Assembly (NCBI RefSeq): GCF_012863495.1
Contig: NZ_JAAVJL010000001.1
Coordinates: 1,240,001 to 1,304,000 of the forward strand
Direction of reading: 5' to 3'
Source: Pseudanabaena yagii GIHE-NHR1
GTDB lineage: Bacteria > Cyanobacteriota > Cyanobacteriia > Pseudanabaenales > Pseudanabaenaceae
DNA length: 64,000 nucleotides
Every line of letters starts with the position of its first letter. Within the stretch, counting starts at the first letter, position 1. Below, one piece after another: positions 4,447 to 12,898 of this stretch. A program made the position numbers and the translations under genes. The notes under the pieces were generated by a model, which was given only the letters and a program-made list of their open reading frames with translations, ran no database searches and was not told the origin of the DNA.

Positions 4447-4494
4447 AAACTAATAGAGAGTTGCGGTACTTCGTACCGCAACTCTCTATTAGTT
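4447..4494. repeat. Long perfect hairpin, GAGAGTTGCGG arm type
   Basis: 22-bp perfect arms (starting AAACTAATAGAGAG) around a CTTCG-type apex. The arm segment GAGAGTTGCGG recurs in hairpins at 43293 and, shortened to TAGTTGCGG, at 59137. Confidence 0.9.
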
Positions 4495-4538: not shown

Positions 4539-5849
4539 ATGGGAAATCAACGACCGATCGCGGTGGATCTATTTGCGGGTGCGGGCGGGATGACATTGGG
4601 GTTCGAGCAAGCAGGATTTGATGTCCTTGCGGCGGTAGAGATTGATCCCATCCATTGCGCTACCCATGAGTACAATTTCCCCATGTGGAAAGTGATTTGC
4701 GCTAGTGTTACTGATATATCAGGGAATGATATTCGCCAGCAATCGGACATAGGCGATCGCGAAGTTGATGTGGTCTTCGGGGGACCGCCTTGTCAAGGTT
4801 TTTCTCTAATGGGCAAACGCGCCTTTGACGATCCGCGTAATGAGCTAGTGTCACACTTCATGCGGTTAGTCATAGAACTAAAAGCTAAGTATTTTGTGAT
4901 GGAAAATGTGAAGGGCTTGACCGTAGGCAATCATAGTCAGTTTGTAGATGAAGTCATTGCCAATTTCGAGAACCATGGCTATAAAATCCTCAAACCCTAT
5001 AAAGTTCTAAATGCTTCTCATTTTGGCGTACCACAACACCGCGAAAGACTATTTCTCGTCGGCTGTCGTCAAGATTTACCACTTCCCAGTTATCCATTCC
5101 CCATTACCAAACCTGCTAAAGCTAAACGCATTTCTAAAGAACTTGCTAATTTACCAAATAGCCCGACTGTAAGTGATGCGATCGCCGATTTACCAGATAT
5201 TTCCAGATACCAAGAACTCCAAGATCATGATTGGTGCATTGCCGAGTACCGAAAGCCCCAAAGTATTTATAGTGAATATCTCCGAGGATTACAGACAGAA
5301 CCGAGCAACCTATCCTATCCTCGCAAATATAACCCACAATTACTAACATCTAGCATCAGTACCGCGCATTGTCCCACATCAATTGCCCGTTTTAGTGCTA
5401 CAGCCAATGGAGAAACCGAGAAAATTAGTCGCTTTCTCAAACTCGATCCTCAAGGCATTTGTAATACCCTCAGGGCTGGCACACCTAGCAATCGAGGAGC
5501 ATTTACTGCACCTCGCCCAATTCATCCTGAACAACCACGCTGCATTACTGTCCGCGAGGCGGCGAGATTACATTCCTATCCCGATTGGTTTCGCTTTCAC
5601 AGTACGAAATGGCATGGGTTTCGTCAGATTGGGAATTCCGTCCCACCACTATTAGCTAGAGCCGTTGCCCATCAATTACACACCGTTTTAGGAATAAATA
5701 TCATTCAGCCTCAAGATCCAATTCCTTTAGAAAAAGATGAACTATTGCGCCTAAAAATGTTGAAAGCCGCAGAAAAATATGGCGTTGATTCCCATGTAAT
5801 TGAGTCGCGAATCAAAAAAGTTGATTTAATCAATCCCACCATAGTGTAA
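4539..5849 (+). CDS. DNA (cytosine-5-)-methyltransferase, solitary
   Basis: 436 aa. Class I m5C methylase motifs in canonical order: motif I DLFAGAGGMTLGF (residues 10-22, AdoMet binding), motif IV GGPPCQGFS with the nucleophile Cys85, motif VI MENVKG, motif VIII QHRERLFLVG, and motifs IX-X near the C-terminus (REAARLHSYPDWF, QIGNSVPPLLA). No restriction endonuclease gene is adjacent: upstream is a transporter, downstream a convergent DUF4253-like gene overlapping by 20 bp. It is therefore an orphan methylase. In cyanobacteria the well-known solitary m5C enzyme of this length methylates CGATCG, the core of HIP1; whether this is that enzyme is inference. It uses HIP1-containing codons itself, so it is not an obvious recent import. 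Confidence 0.92.
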   Translation: MGNQRPIAVDLFAGAGGMTLGFEQAGFDVLAAVEIDPIHCATHEYNFPMWKVICASVTDISGNDIRQQSDIGDREVDVVFGGPPCQGFSLMGKRAFDDPRNELVSHFMRLVIELKAKYFVMENVKGLTVGNHSQFVDEVIANFENHGYKILKPYKVLNASHFGVPQHRERLFLVGCRQDLPLPSYPFPITKPAKAKRISKELANLPNSPTVSDAIADLPDISRYQELQDHDWCIAEYRKPQSIYSEYLRGLQTEPSNLSYPRKYNPQLLTSSISTAHCPTSIARFSATANGETEKISRFLKLDPQGICNTLRAGTPSNRGAFTAPRPIHPEQPRCITVREAARLHSYPDWFRFHSTKWHGFRQIGNSVPPLLARAVAHQLHTVLGINIIQPQDPIPLEKDELLRLKMLKAAEKYGVDSHVIESRIKKVDLINPTIV

Positions 5850-6228
5850 TGGCTTTATGGATAGAGAGCGATCGCTTGAGTAGCTCAAACCCATAGTCCT
5901 CATCAGTAAGATCGATATCTTTAAGCAAAACTTGAATTTCGACCGATAGAGGCTGATTAAATTCTTCGGCAACGGCGATCGCATCAGCCATACAACCAAA
6001 ATGTTGATCGATGACATCTGGACAGAACTCATAAATTTCGACGGCAAGCTTTGTTAAGTCTTCAGGCAAATCACTAAAGGTCACAGTTACGGTATCAAAT
6101 TCGATATCACTCAATTCAATGCCATACTGAGCATCCCAATATTGGAACTGTTCGATCAGATCTTCAGTACTTAGATCGTAGTTATCGCCATTTGTACCAA
6201 CTTCGCGGATCTGTTGATATTTATCCAT
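5830..6228 (-). CDS. DUF4253-like protein
   Basis: 132 aa from the ATG at 6228, which is preceded by a GGGAGC Shine-Dalgarno-like sequence; an in-frame ATG at 6243 would add five residues but has no ribosome-binding site. The pattern YWDAQYGIE...FDTVTVTFSDLP followed by AVEIYEFCPDVIDQ and a terminal LWWD fits the DUF4253 family, whose members end in (F/L)WWD. Very acidic, no signal peptide or membrane segment. Function unknown. Convergent with the methyltransferase, with 20 bp of 3' overlap. Confidence 0.6.
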   Translation of the reverse strand: MDKYQQIREVGTNGDNYDLSTEDLIEQFQYWDAQYGIELSDIEFDTVTVTFSDLPEDLTKLAVEIYEFCPDVIDQHFGCMADAIAVAEEFNQPLSVEIQVLLKDIDLTDEDYGFELLKRSLSIHKAITLWWD

Positions 6229-6250
6229 ATTTTTTGCTCCCATAATTCAG

Positions 6251-6297
6251 GCTAGAGAATTGTTTTCCCGCCTTCGGCGGGAAAACAATTCTCTAGC
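6251..6297. repeat. Perfect hairpin CCGCCTTCGGCGG apex
   Basis: 22-bp perfect arms starting GCTAGAGAATTG, loop TTC, between cysS and the DUF4253-like gene (both minus strand). The apex GCCTTCGGC recurs at 28571 and, as GCCGAAGGC, at 35248, with different outer arms. Confidence 0.9.
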
Positions 6298-7847: not shown

Positions 7848-7972
7848 CCTATTGAGCATCTTTCAGGATTGACATGAATATTATGCAAAGTGTGGCTAGA
7901 CCATGAACAAAATATGAGGTTTAATAGAGATCCTTGTTATTCGCTAGGGGATGCGATCGCTTAAAAACTGAT

Positions 7973-9046
7973 ATGGCAAAGCAAACTAAACTAAAAAGCA
8001 TTGAAGAAACTCTATGGGATTCGGCTAATAAGTTGCGTGGTTCGGTGGAGTCTTCGGAATATAAGCACGTTGTTTTGGGGTTGATCTTTCTCAAGTTTGC
8101 GAGTGATAAGTTTGAGGAGAGACAGCAGGAGTTGATCGCTGAGGGGAAAGATAAGTATTTGGATATGGTGGAGTTTTACACGATGAAGAATGTGTTTTAT
8201 CTGCCTGAGTTGTCGCGTTGGGGCTATTTGATGGAGAATGCGAAACAGGCTGATCTTGCGCTCAAGATTGATACGGCTTTGTTTACGGTGGAGAAAAATA
8301 ATCCTTCGTTAAAGGGGGCTTTGCCTGACAATTACTATTCGCGGTTGAATCTTGATGTTAGTAAGTTGACTTCTTTGTTGGATACGATCAATAACATTAA
8401 TACGCTTCAGGATAAGCAACAGGATATTGTGGGGCGGGTGTATGAATACTTTTTGAGTAAGTTTGCTTTGGCAGAAGGGAAAGGCAAAGGGGAATTTTAT
8501 ACGCCGAAGAGTATTGTTAATTTGATTGCGGAGATGATCGAGCCTTACAAGGGGAAAATTTACGATCCTGCTTGTGGTTCGGGTGGGATGTTTGTGCAGT
8601 CGATTAAGTTTATTGAGAGCCATCATGGTAATCAAAAGGATATTTCGATTTATGGTCAGGAATATACGGCGACTACTTATAAGCTGGCGAAGATGAATCT
8701 GGCGATTAGGGGGATTTCGGCGAATTTGGGTGATGTGCCTGAAGATACTTTTAGGAAGGATCAGCATCGGGATTTGAAGGCGGATTATATTATGGCGAAT
8801 CCTCCTTTTAATCAGAAGGAATGGAGAGGTGCGAATGAGTTGGTTGATGATCCGCGATGGAGTGGTTATGATGTGCCGCCGACTGGTAATGCGAATTATG
8901 CTTGGATTTTGAATATTGTGTCTAAGCTGTCGGTGAATGGGGTGGCAGGGTTTATTTTGGCGAATGGGGCTTTGTCGGGTGGGGGGACTGAGTATAGTAT
9001 TCGTAAGAAGTTGATTGAGAATAATCTATACCTTAACAGGGAATAG
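7973..9046 (+). pseudogene. hsdM: Type I restriction-modification N6-adenine methyltransferase HsdM, 3' truncated by IS630
   Basis: Start ATG 7973 (MAKQTKLKSIEETLWDSANKL); an upstream in-frame codon at 7934 is unlikely. HsdM N-terminal domain (about residues 10-150), then AdoMet motif I DPACGSGGMF (from residue 198) and catalytic motif IV ANPPFN (Asn276). Native sequence ends at ...IRKKLIENNL; the last four residues before the stop are encoded by the left end of an IS630 element (from 9031). Roughly the last third of a normal HsdM is missing, and it does not resume beyond the right end of the element. No hsdS or hsdR is present. Codon use (many GGG, TTG, GTG codons, no HIP1 inside the gene) differs from neighbouring genes, consistent with horizontal acquisition followed by decay. 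Confidence 0.92.
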
Positions 9047-9429
9047 ACTTAATATTTTTAAGAGACTGAAAGCGCAAAGTTAATAAAGAATCCAAAGCAG
9101 ATTTATGAAGTAGTGTGGGAATTCTCAAGGCAAGAAGCAATAGCAAATTTGAAAGAATCAAAATCAGGATAATAGACTGAGTAGAGACATTGCTTTTTGA
9201 CAAATTTCCAAAGACGCTCAATCAAGTTTAAGTTTGGAGAGTAAGTAGTCAAATAAAGAAGCTCGATATTTAATGACTGAGCCAACTCAAAAACTAAAAC
9301 ACACTTTTGATAACGAGCATTATCCAAGACAAGAGTAATGGGTATAGTCAAACCCAAAGCCGCAAGTTTGTGGAGTAAGTCACAAACACTTTGAGCATTG
9401 ATGTAAGAATCATTAGTCACAGTAATCAA
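9033..9429 (-). pseudogene. IS630 transposase, C-terminal fragment
   Basis: Continues the transposase of the 12248-12898 fragment: LITVTNDSYINAQSV, then the DDE core motifs LVLDNARYQKC (second Asp) and LPTYSPNLNLIE-like TYSPNLNLIERLWKF (catalytic Glu). Near 9105-9110 one extra T shifts the frame, so the last segment (HKSALDSLLTLRFQSLKNI) is in another frame and ends at a TAA inside the terminal repeat. Inactive: separated from its N-terminus by two insertions and frameshifted. Confidence 0.85.
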
Positions 9430-10742
9430 CCTGATTGACTGACAAAAGTGGTAAGAGAAGTTGCGAGAAAGTATACAGAGATTGAATTTGAGTAAAAAAG
9501 AGGCGTATGCTGTTTTTTGAAGAAAAAGGAGCATAGGACAAATGACCCAAAACGCCTCACGTATCTATAATGAACTAATAAAATTCGGGAGTCAATACAG
9601 CCAGTGGTCAGATGTGCGCCATTTGGGAGTAATGGCGTGGATGATGGTGGGAATGATCGCCACAGGGAGTGTGAATTTAACGAAGTGGTTAAGCCATATC
9701 AACACAAAAGCATTGATCGCCCAAAGCACGCAAAGACAACTATCAAGATGGCTGAACAATCCGCGCATAAATCCAGCTAAGCTATACAGTCCAGTAATCA
9801 AAGAGTTAATCGCTAAATGGAAAGAGCCAGAAATATATCTGAGTTTTGATACCAGTCAACTGTGGGAAGAATACAGCATGATCCGATTGTGTGTAGTTCA
9901 TCAGGGAAGAGCTTTACCGTTATGTTGGCGTGTAATCAAACATCGCAGTAGTAGTGTGGAGATGAGTAGCTATCAAGACATGCTCAAACGCGCATCGAAA
10001 CTGTTGCCCGTGAATGTCAAAGTAGTTTTATTAGCAGACCGAGCATTTGCTAATCCAGAACTGGTGCGCTATGTGTGGGAATTAAAATGGCAATGTCGGA
10101 TTCGGATCAAGGGTAATTTCTGGATATATGCCCCCAAGCATGGCTGGCAAACAGTCAAACAATTACATCTTCGTCTTGGTGAAGCTAAGTTGATCCACAA
10201 TGTTAAAGTTCACAAAACTGAGTCCAAGCGTCTTACCGATGTGCATATTGCGGCGGCTTGGGAATCTGGGAGCCGAGAGTATTGGTATATTCTCAGTACT
10301 GAACCTACCACACTCCAAACTTTTTGGGAGTATGGTCTGAGATTCGATATTGAGGAGAATTTCTTGGATGATAAATCTAATGGCTTTGATTTAGAATCTT
10401 CGCGTTTACGTTCGGCTCCTGCCATTTCTCGCCTTTGTTTTGTGATAGCACTGACCACCTTGTTTTTAACGGCTCAAGGACTGGCGGTTGCTGATTCTGG
10501 CTATCGTCGTTTGGTTGATCCTCATTGGTTTCGTGGCTTAGTTATCTCAAGATTGGCTGGAACTGGATTCACACCGCTATCACTAAAAACTGGGCTTTCT
10601 TGCCTTTCTACTCTTTTACTTCTTATCTTGACTCTCACCCTGCTATTGCTTCTCGTCGAAAACATCTTCAGAAATTATTCCGCATTGAGTTCTATGCTTC
10701 TACTCTCGACTATGCTTCATAGACTTTTGTCAGTCAATCAGG
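9430..10742 (+). mobile_element. Insertion sequence A (IS4-like), inserted in the IS630 element
   Basis: 1313 bp with perfect 19-bp terminal inverted repeats CCTGATTGACTGACAAAAG (9430-9448; complement at 10724-10742). Flanked by a 7-bp direct repeat TAATCAA (9423-9429 and 10743-10749), read as the target duplication. It carries one frameshifted DDE transposase gene. Confidence 0.9.
9542..10722 (+). pseudogene. IS4-like DDE transposase, frameshifted
   Basis: N-terminal 330 or so residues are intact and show the DDE triad context: LSFDTSQLW (first Asp), VVLLADRAFANPEL (second Asp) and FDIEENFLDDKSNGFDLE (Glu). Near 10538-10545 the frame breaks: the real C-terminus (LSYLKIGWNWI ... YASTLDYAS, stop at 10722, just before the right terminal repeat) is in the -1 frame. 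No slippery sequence is visible there, so a 1-bp deletion (probably one A in TTA-AGT) rather than programmed frameshifting is likely. The uncorrected frame runs on out of the element to 10816. Confidence 0.85.
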
Positions 10743-10753
10743 TAATCAACTCA

Positions 10754-12247
10754 CTGGAGTTTAGACTAAAAAAGGAAAAAAGGCAGAGTAAAAGAGATAC
10801 AAACTGCCTAAAGTAGATGAAAAAGAAAAAGCACATCTACAGCCATGATTATTGAGAAACTACAGGAATTTCGTCAACAGGTATATAGATTTTTAGGGAA
10901 CGGACGAGATGCAATATTTGACCTAATGGATGCAGTATTGACCAGTCCAAGTGTAAAGTCATTTGCAGAATTATCATTATCAGCAGTGTATCGACGGAAA
11001 TGGTCAAGCTTGTATGAATCGTTAAAAGATAGCCGTCCGAGACGAGGGAGACTCAGAGGACTGTGCGTCGAACAAATACCCAAAGATATACGACCCTTGC
11101 TAGCAGGAGACCATACAGGATGGGAAAGACCCCATGACCAAACTCTAAAAGATAGGAGTTTGTGCATCAACCGAATTTGGTTGAAGGAACAAACCGATCA
11201 TGTTAGGGCATGACTACAGCACCTTGGCATGGATACCAGAAATGACAGGGAGTTTGGGCAATTCCGTTATGTCATGAACGCATCAGTAGTTTTGAGACAG
11301 CCGCACAAAGAGCTACATTTCAACTGAGGCAAGTATGTCGAGATTTAACGGTAAGACCGATCGCTACCTATGACAGTGAATATGGCAGTGCCGCCTTTAT
11401 GAATTTGACAGAGGATATCCCCGCAGACTTACTGCTGCGTCTACGTCCTAACCGATGCTTATACAAAGTCCCTGCTCCCTATAGTGGCTGTGGTCGTCCC
11501 CGTAAGCATGGGGATAAATTCCAACTTGCCAAGTCTGATAGTTGGGGAGAGCCATCAGCAACTTTTAGCTTAGAGGATGAGACGGTTGGACAAGTGCAAA
11601 TCCAGCAATGGTCTGATTTACACTTTAAAAAAGCATCCCAACGACATTTCCAAGTTATGCGAGTTACCCATCCCCATTGCTCTGGTTTGTGGTTAGCTTG
11701 GGTGGGTGAGCAAATGCCATCTTTAGAGCAAATTTGGCGCTTGTACTTACGTCGTTTTGCCATCGACCATTGGTATCGCTTTGCCAAACAGCGTTTACAT
11801 TGGACTCTGCCACAATTACTGACTCCTCAACAAGCTTTGCGCTGGAGTGACCTCATGCCTTTACTCTCTTGGCAATTGTGGCTCGCTCGAAAACTGGTCA
11901 TTGATAATCCTTTACCTTGGCAGAAGCCTCAAACTAATCTCACCTTTGGTCGGGTCGCTCAGGGCTTTGCGACACTTTTAGTTAGGATTGGCTCTCCTGC
12001 TTGTTCTCCGAAACCTCGCGGTAAGTCTCTTGGTTGGCAATCTGGGCGTAAGCGCTCTCCTTTTCCTCGCTTTCCCATCATCAAAAAACGTCCTTCTCGT
12101 CCAAAAAAGACCAACAAAGACAACCCTAATTCCTAATCCTCAATATTCTCGTTTTCTTTCTCTTGGTTTTGCTCAGTTCTTCATTCTCTGAGTTGTTTTT
12201 TCCTGCTCTTTTTCTGATTATCTCAATCAACTTAGTCTAAACTCCAG
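10754..12247 (+). mobile_element. Insertion sequence B, copy 1 (degenerate), inserted in the IS630 element
   Basis: 1494 bp with 16-bp terminal inverted repeats CTGGAGTTTAGACTAA (10754-10769 and complement 12232-12247), flanked by 8-bp direct repeats TCAACTCA (10746-10753 and 12248-12255). The left duplication overlaps that of element A, so both hit the same few bases of the IS630 transposase gene. A second copy lies at 61979-63473 on the other strand. Confidence 0.9.
10845..12136 (+). pseudogene. Transposase of insertion sequence B, copy 1, with at least two frameshifts
   Basis: Starts MIIEKLQEFRQQVYRFLGNG and is very close to the intact copy at 62090-63382. The frame breaks near 11155-11165 (after TLKDRS) and again near 11240-11250, where an extra T in the run encoding MTGS(L/W) changes the frame; it recovers for the C-terminal half from MNLTEDIPADLLLRLRPN to the Lys/Arg-rich tail. 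Inactive. A GTAGATG...CATCTAC stem just before the ATG is conserved in both copies and probably limits translation. Confidence 0.88.
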
Positions 12248-12898
12248 TCAACTCATGAGTAACAGCATTAAGTGCACCGAGGACATTAAAACGCTGTCTT
12301 CCCGTCCCAGATTTAAGAAACAAGCGTTCAAAACACCACAAAAAGCCTAAATAGGCTCCAAGGACAAAGTGAGCAGCATCAACAAAGAAAACGGCTCTTT
12401 GTCCAGATTTAGCTTCCTCTAAGCGCGGTTCTAGTTTTTTTTAAGAAATTCCTCTTGTGCTGCTGGGTCAGCCTTTGCAGGTATTAGCCCCACTCGACGA
12501 CAACTCATTCCCATCGATTTCAGGAAATGACGCACCTGTTCTCGACTACGGACAATCCCTGTCAACTCAGTAATTTTTGCTGCTGCATGAGCCAGCGTTT
12601 TAGGTGGATGTTCTCGAAAATATATCTCTAAACTTTCTTGATGCTTTTTTAGTTCACTCTGGGGGCGATTAAAGGTCAGTTCTTTCAGTTTGCTTATCCC
12701 ACCTTCTTTATAATCTCGTAAATAGTTCAACAGTGTCGGTTCACTGATTCTTAGCAGTTTCGTAATTTCCTTGTGTGGGTATTTCTGGCTTTTTAGGTAT
12801 AGTGCTTCCATTTTTCTCTGCACTCGTGGATGCGGGTGATGGAATCTTTCGTAATGTAGCGCATCTATTTCTTCTTTGGTAAATGTTATTCGGAGCAT
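12248..12898 (-). pseudogene. IS630 transposase, N-terminal and middle part (with A8 frameshift site)
   Basis: First ORF 12898-12431 encodes the helix-turn-helix half (MLRITFTKEEIDALHYERF, KEITKLLRISEPTLLNYLRD) ending LKKN-stop at TAG 12433-12431. Just before this stop is a run of eight A (12435-12442 complement). A -1 slip there opens the DDE half: KKLEPRLEEAKSGQRAVFFV-DAAHF (first catalytic Asp) to NVLGALNAVTHE, where insertion B cuts it. The A8 run at the ORF junction fits programmed -1 frameshifting, known for several IS families. The rest of the gene is at 9033-9429. Confidence 0.85.

Follow-up and report, generated by a model that had tools for sequence, protein, structure and literature searches.

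We found that the gene at positions 4539-5849 of the window, the 64,000-nucleotide stretch of Pseudanabaena yagii GIHE-NHR1 DNA analyzed here, most likely encodes a solitary C5-cytosine DNA methyltransferase (m5C methylase) that methylates the first C of CGATCG. The gene appears to derive from a type II restriction-modification pair whose restriction gene is gone and whose methylase has been kept. We put the probability of this joint reading, which is built on sequence comparisons, at roughly 80%. CGATCG is the core of HIP1 (GCGATCGC), a sequence for which we know of no agreed function. An association between HIP1 and CGATCG methylases was published in 2015, as a proposal that such methylases accompany HIP1 (Elhai, PMC4390886), and the window gene extends this published pattern. 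The main text of that paper names Pseudanabaena once, for PCC 7367, described as having no recognisable CGATCG methylase. Among the papers listed by our literature searches, none dealt with the enzyme of Pseudanabaena or with a series running from paired to solitary methylases. What our analysis adds is a type II restriction gene, whole or as remains, next to the methylase in 14 of 292 genomes of the phylum and in the congener Pseudanabaena cinerea. The importance of the single window gene is modest; it is a typical, well-supported case of an established group, and the comparative series around it is useful.

The gene is a single intact open reading frame (ORF) with an ATG start. The protein matches C5-cytosine DNA methyltransferase models (PF00145, E = 4.2e-71; TIGR00675, E = 3.7e-62), and its top PADLOC model is PDLC03326 (579 bits; 303 bits for the runner-up model). 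In a sequence search of solved structures, the best match was a cytosine methyltransferase entry (3g7u, E = 7.7e-76). A structure model of the protein itself (mean pLDDT 58.7) was too poor for a fold search. The features of the locus are:

4539..5849, + strand: solitary C5-cytosine DNA methyltransferase gene (436 aa; PF00145, TIGR00675, PDLC03326)
4555..4560, no strand assigned: CGATCG near the methylase start (base 17), at the same position in 16 of the 21 Pseudanabaena-type loci examined
4753..4760, no strand assigned: HIP1 within the methylase gene
4786..4806, + strand: segment with the P-C-Q catalytic motif (residues 83-89), which we take to be motif IV; P84, C85, Q86, G87, F88 and S89 are invariant in 29 of 29 sequences
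5064..5537, + strand: target-recognition region, motifs VIII to IX (residues 176-333), with boundaries set by us
5178..5185, no strand assigned: HIP1 within the methylase gene
5694..5846, + strand: C-terminal extension (residues 386-436), partly conserved in the family, with L397 and M407 invariant in 29 sequences
5850..6243, no strand assigned: position of the restriction gene in relatives, here holding a DUF4253 gene, with no trace of the partner

The enzyme is probably active. In many relatives the alignment to the window protein starts at residue 1, and all 29 aligned sequences share its catalytic P-C-Q and E-N-V residues. The nearest relatives, both by homolog search and in a tree, are from Pseudanabaena. 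Comparison with the nearest one gave dN 0.092 and dS 1.09 (dN/dS about 0.08), indicating that the window protein is under purifying selection. Since the restriction partner is gone, the protein might be regarded as an inactive, decaying remnant of the lost system. We consider this extremely unlikely, given a full-length protein with intact catalytic residues, the low dN/dS, and methylase neighbours that are the same in several congeners.

The CGATCG near the methylase start is a separate matter. Such a site was present in 34 of 79 loci, compared to 15.4 expected. We did not take this enrichment as evidence of autoregulation, since it comes mostly from one inherited position. The site at base 17 may reflect coding conservation or may be a self-regulatory site.

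The initial annotation had described the m5C methylase as solitary, with no nuclease nearby, and this was confirmed as far as tested, among the neighbours and in a genome-wide search for homologs of the partner. The upstream neighbours, read by eye, are presumably genes for a transporter lipoprotein and permeases, and the downstream one presumably cysS. A DUF4253 gene (5830-6243, - strand) abuts the methylase and lies between it and cysS. Among the loci searched (up to 109), 12 had the upstream permease gene, 10 the lipoprotein gene, 10 cysS and 4 the DUF4253 gene; the matches listed are from Pseudanabaena or carry its genus code, and many loci end before all of the neighbours could be seen. 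The restriction partner of this methylase family (described below) had no homolog in the whole genome at E <= 1e-5, and there was no trace of it downstream of the window methylase at E <= 0.05. By eye, two long, near-perfect hairpins whose loops are of the TTCG type border the methylase-DUF4253 segment (4450-4492 and 6252-6296). They may be terminators or, alternatively, small mobile elements of palindromic form.

Other restriction-modification genes are present in this genome. The only one close to the methylase is a type I HsdM gene (7934-9046) that ends early, ahead of transposase-like ORFs. The region 7934-12898 contains HsdM and several transposase-like ORFs; reading it by eye, we recognised no type I S or R gene, and the region appears to be a type I system in decay, at a distance of 2 kb from the methylase. 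The 5.57-Mb genome encodes three further C5 methylases: one adjoins a BanI-type restriction gene (PF24447, E = 6e-138), another an HNH-domain gene, and the third a 220-aa ORF without a recognised family. Given these neighbours, the window gene may not be the genome's only solitary C5 methylase. There is also a Dam-family adenine methylase gene (TIGR00571, above the cut-off). At a locus of the same genome (L085, 540-3651) the Dam-like gene adjoins a PDDEXK_11 ORF, and a further ORF beside it reads by eye as what we take to be dprA, a DNA-uptake gene.

These genes, together with the fact that a nuclease of unknown family would escape our search, bear on the notion that the methylase still serves a restriction-modification system, its nuclease being unrelated to the family's partner or encoded at a distant locus. 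Thousands of sites would be unprotected if the methylase were lost, so a hidden partner is conceivable, but nothing points to one, and the family's partner has neither a homolog in the genome nor a trace behind the methylase. We judge this arrangement to be very unlikely.

Comparison with relatives instead suggests that the window methylase is a leftover of a type II pair, putatively specific for CGATCG, whose nuclease was lost in this lineage. Enterobacterial and Paracoccus plasmids carry methylases that align with 95-97% of the window protein at 53-58% identity. On the three plasmids that were opened (E. coli, Klebsiella and Paracoccus), the methylase gene overlaps at its end with an ORF of ~265 aa; this overlapping restriction gene sets them apart from the window genome, which has none. 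The ~265-aa plasmid ORFs match the PADLOC restriction-enzyme model PDLC03404 (E = 1.1e-136 and 1.1e-135), as does the P. cinerea homolog (E = 1e-123), and for the methylase of the E. coli plasmid PDLC03326 ranks first, as it does for the window enzyme. No such partner ORF was found beside the methylase homolog of a Bosea plasmid. The methylase of Mycobacterium phage Cueylyss (L090, 3962-5281) is 57% identical to the window protein, and no restriction partner was found beside it.

The plasmid pairs presumably cut CGATCG. Through them, the window methylase resembles PvuI/XorII-type (CGATCG) systems, both in overall identity and in a strong match between recognition regions (residues 181-290 against the plasmid and phage set, E = 2.5e-41). 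It belongs to the same methylase subfamily as the E. coli plasmid enzyme (PDLC03326), the equation of this subfamily with XorII resting on PMC4390886; unlike those systems, it has no adjacent cognate restriction gene. The Paracoccus pair differs further in having a Vsr gene, which is lacking in the window genome. We rejected Vsr repair as a partner function: Vsr was present in 21 of the 292 genomes and in none of the 84 that have the methylase.

The partner protein itself matched no Pfam or NCBIfam model, a sequence search of solved structures gave nothing below E = 0.58, and its structure model (mean pLDDT 52.6) was too poor for a fold search. We found no match to the plasmid restriction partner in the E. 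coli genome annotation.

We searched the 292 genomes of the phylum with the Paracoccus ORF as query (E <= 1e-5). The partner was present in 14, in every case (14/14) within 1.5 kb of a methylase match. Ten of these are full length or nearly so and without stops, one (G211) contains three stops, and three (G019, G159 and G103) consist of pieces only. All ten genomes with a full-length partner are rich in HIP1, at 0.34-1.26 per kb. The partner was absent at this threshold from the window genome and from its two congeners in the set. Among 80 named loci, 12 had a partner match of at least 220 aa, 9 a shorter remnant, and 57 none, and 2 ended too early. Two of these scores need qualification: L107 counts as a remnant only since the locus ends there (its partner, in G121, has no stops), and L143 counts as intact by match length (its partner, in G211, holds the three stops).

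Both states are found close to the window gene. In P. cinerea FACHB-1277, the stop codon of the methylase gene shares one base with the start codon of the partner gene. In a Pseudanabaena-type bin (L005), 27 residues of the partner start (59% identical) lie directly behind the methylase. On the methylase tree, partner presence (remnants counted as present) changes at least 19 times, gains and losses not being distinguished; because remnants exist, partner loss is part of these changes. For this tree, 17 rows were dropped beforehand, and loci L093-L099 were left out of the alignment, the partner tally and the tree. Figure 5 of Elhai (2015) includes columns for CGATCG restriction enzymes, and according to that paper these enzymes appear and disappear fast in evolutionary time (PMC4390886). 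The history of the window gene would then be one of an ancestral type II pair, likely CGATCG-specific, that lost its restriction gene and kept its methylase.

CGATCG is the best-supported target of the window methylase as far as comparison of sequences can indicate. DmtC, M.Ssp6803I and M.XorII are placed in one CGATCG group (PMC4390886), and M.Ssp6803I is reported to methylate the first C of CGATCG (PMC6604393). The latter paper also reports PvuI to be sensitive to m5C within CGATCG. DmtC (Anabaena PCC 7120) and M.Ssp6803I (slr0214, Synechocystis PCC 6803) are, like the window enzyme, solitary C5 methylases of HIP1-rich cyanobacteria. The window gene has several properties of this group: it encodes a C5-cytosine methyltransferase with intact catalytic motifs, it has no cognate restriction gene, and its genome shows over-representation of HIP1. 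The window enzyme probably belongs with DmtC and M.Ssp6803I. It differs from them in that their target comes from the literature and that of the window enzyme is predicted, with identities measured to relatives' homologs only.

The methylase matches fell into one range of 50-66% identity (at least 70% within the genus) and a second of 43-48%; a few members at 50-53% (L131 and L145-L148) group with the second range in the tree. Many Nostocales and Oscillatoriales have homologs 59-66% identical to the window protein, with the Nostocales-type ones at about 60-65%. A Synechocystis-like genus, recognised solely because it matches part of the PCC 6803 plasmid pSYSA at 85-90% identity, belongs to the second range, with homologs 45-47% identical to the window protein. 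Only one genome (G167) of the 84 contained both ranges, the second match being weaker; this is a lower bound, as often only 5 candidates were scored. The same restriction-enzyme family adjoins methylases of both ranges (in the second range, in G109, G119 and G211), and no restriction partner was seen at the Synechocystis-like loci themselves. The shared partner family and the rare co-occurrence argue for one common target, and appear to be the best indirect evidence for it.

We compared the recognition region directly, as the initial annotation had suggested. Beyond the strong match to the plasmid methylases, residues 181-290 matched the second identity range (E = 4.3e-13), a cyanophage enzyme (E = 3.3e-7) and the Synechocystis-like trio (E = 5.6e-6). 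The last match was weaker than that to a Trichormus enzyme of unknown target (E = 1.2e-8). The three other C5 methylases of the genome gave E = 0.0042 to 0.65. In the methylase tree, long outgroup branches fall among the second-range members, so that its deep branches give no firm placement of this range relative to the first. Thus, of the proposal that this enzyme recognizes CGATCG, membership in the m5C group that the literature assigns to this target stood, but the match to the Synechocystis-like recognition regions was weak.

Alternatively, the target of this solitary methylase might be a different one, such as RCCGGY, which is reported for DmtD, and its distribution in HIP1-rich genomes would be due to shared ancestry. 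The recognition region is the least conserved part of the protein (46-50% identical to Nostocales-type and 25-26% to Synechocystis-like relatives), and the sampled genome shows strong avoidance of RCCGGY-type palindromes (ACCGGT 0, GCCGGC 1). However, many other sites are avoided there too, including GGCGCC (0 compared to 67 expected) and GGTACC (1 compared to 60). In addition, presence of the enzyme tracks HIP1 across many families, and its divergent members have one restriction partner family in common. We regard another target as unlikely, and CGATCG as the better prediction.

We verified that the genome is HIP1-rich, as the initial annotation had stated. It contains 8471 copies of GCGATCGC in 5.57 Mb, compared to 51 for the reversed pattern, and the window contains 101, compared to 0.80 expected from shuffles. 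Since the reversed pattern includes CTAG, a sequence with few occurrences in many bacteria, the fairer control is a second-order expectation; by this measure there were 724 copies in 464 kb compared to 14.2 expected (51-fold). Among the 64 palindromic hexamers in the sampled genome, CGATCG had the highest enrichment (7.8-fold; next, 1.7-fold). The window enzyme would methylate the first C of this core. HIP1 would then carry m5C from the window enzyme and probably also GATC adenine methylation from the Dam-like enzyme. DmtA/M.Ssp6803III, a GATC adenine methylase, is the other methylase reported on HIP1; it differs from the window enzyme in the methylated base and belongs to an unrelated family (PF02086), and a Dam-family gene is present in the window genome as well. 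An m4C-type CGATCG methylase has also been described by Elhai (PMC4390886).

Presence of the methylase correlated with HIP1 abundance across genomes. We scored the methylase as present at E <= 1e-60 and a genome as HIP1-rich at >=0.2 per kb, and found the methylase in 84 of the 292 genomes. In the 139 genomes of the same class, 79 had both, 41 had neither, 14 were HIP1-rich without the enzyme, and 5 had the enzyme without HIP1 richness. Without the HIP1-poor family f20, the corresponding numbers were 79, 6, 14 and 5 (p = 0.006); all these counts ignore shared ancestry. The other 153 genomes contained no methylase, and 9 of them had HIP1 at >=0.2 per kb. A Dam-type match (E <= 1e-15) was present in 11 of the 14 HIP1-rich genomes without the enzyme. 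Three of the five genomes with the reverse pattern (G147, G183 and G268) are small and from one genus, with methylase matches of 57-59% and 0.04-0.05 HIP1 per kb. The methylase of one of these (G183) is under purifying selection relative to that of a HIP1-rich congener (G143; dN 0.179, dS 1.12). In size and HIP1 poverty, the three recall the endosymbionts discussed by Elhai. Because there are exceptions both ways, the enzyme is neither needed nor sufficient for HIP1 abundance. The link between methylation and HIP1 abundance that had been suggested for this locus is therefore upheld as a correlation but not as a rule.

One tentative interpretation, which we think somewhat less probable than its converse, is that the cyanobacterial HIP1 methylases are halves of a single CGATCG restriction-modification family and were orphaned repeatedly. 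HIP1 density would then be partly a legacy of methylase-protected, methylase-dependent genomes and not a recruiting signal. The nuclease could have been kept in some lineages, be in the course of loss in some, and have been lost in most, with the methylase and thousands of HIP1 copies persisting.

We looked for a footprint of methylation in decayed HIP1 sites. Methylation of the first C should lead HIP1 to decay to GTGATCGC more than to GCGATTGC. The window genome contained 634 copies of GTGATCGC and 347 of GCGATTGC, the direction expected from first-C deamination, and the two congeners contained 404 vs 320 and 336 vs 188. In whole-genome counts of HIP1-rich genomes, the contrast was above zero in 31 of 79 with the enzyme and 2 of 14 without it. 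This difference was not significant (median log2 values of -0.19 and -0.48, p = 0.09; by family, p = 0.45). We discarded a contrast pooled over 11 genomes (p = 8e-5), as it pooled unequal genomes and came mostly from the window genome (59 vs 20) and one other (G058, 24 vs 5). CGATCG without flanking G or C was depleted (observed/expected 0 to 0.42) in 10 of 11 sampled HIP1-rich genomes, the exception being G286 (2.98). The depletion was also seen in 4 of 5 sampled genomes without the methylase and is therefore no footprint of the window enzyme.

Comparison of the genomes with methylase and nuclease, with methylase only, with HIP1 and no methylase, and with methylase and no HIP1 could put to the test the proposal that HIP1 depends on CGATCG methylation. 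A convenient pair for such a comparison is formed by Pseudanabaena species that have the nuclease and those that lack it. In the Synechocystis-like genus, two genomes (G014 and G080) have neither the enzyme nor HIP1 abundance, and one of them (G080) keeps a Dam-type match. Three congeners of these two have a methylase match, a possible natural test case.
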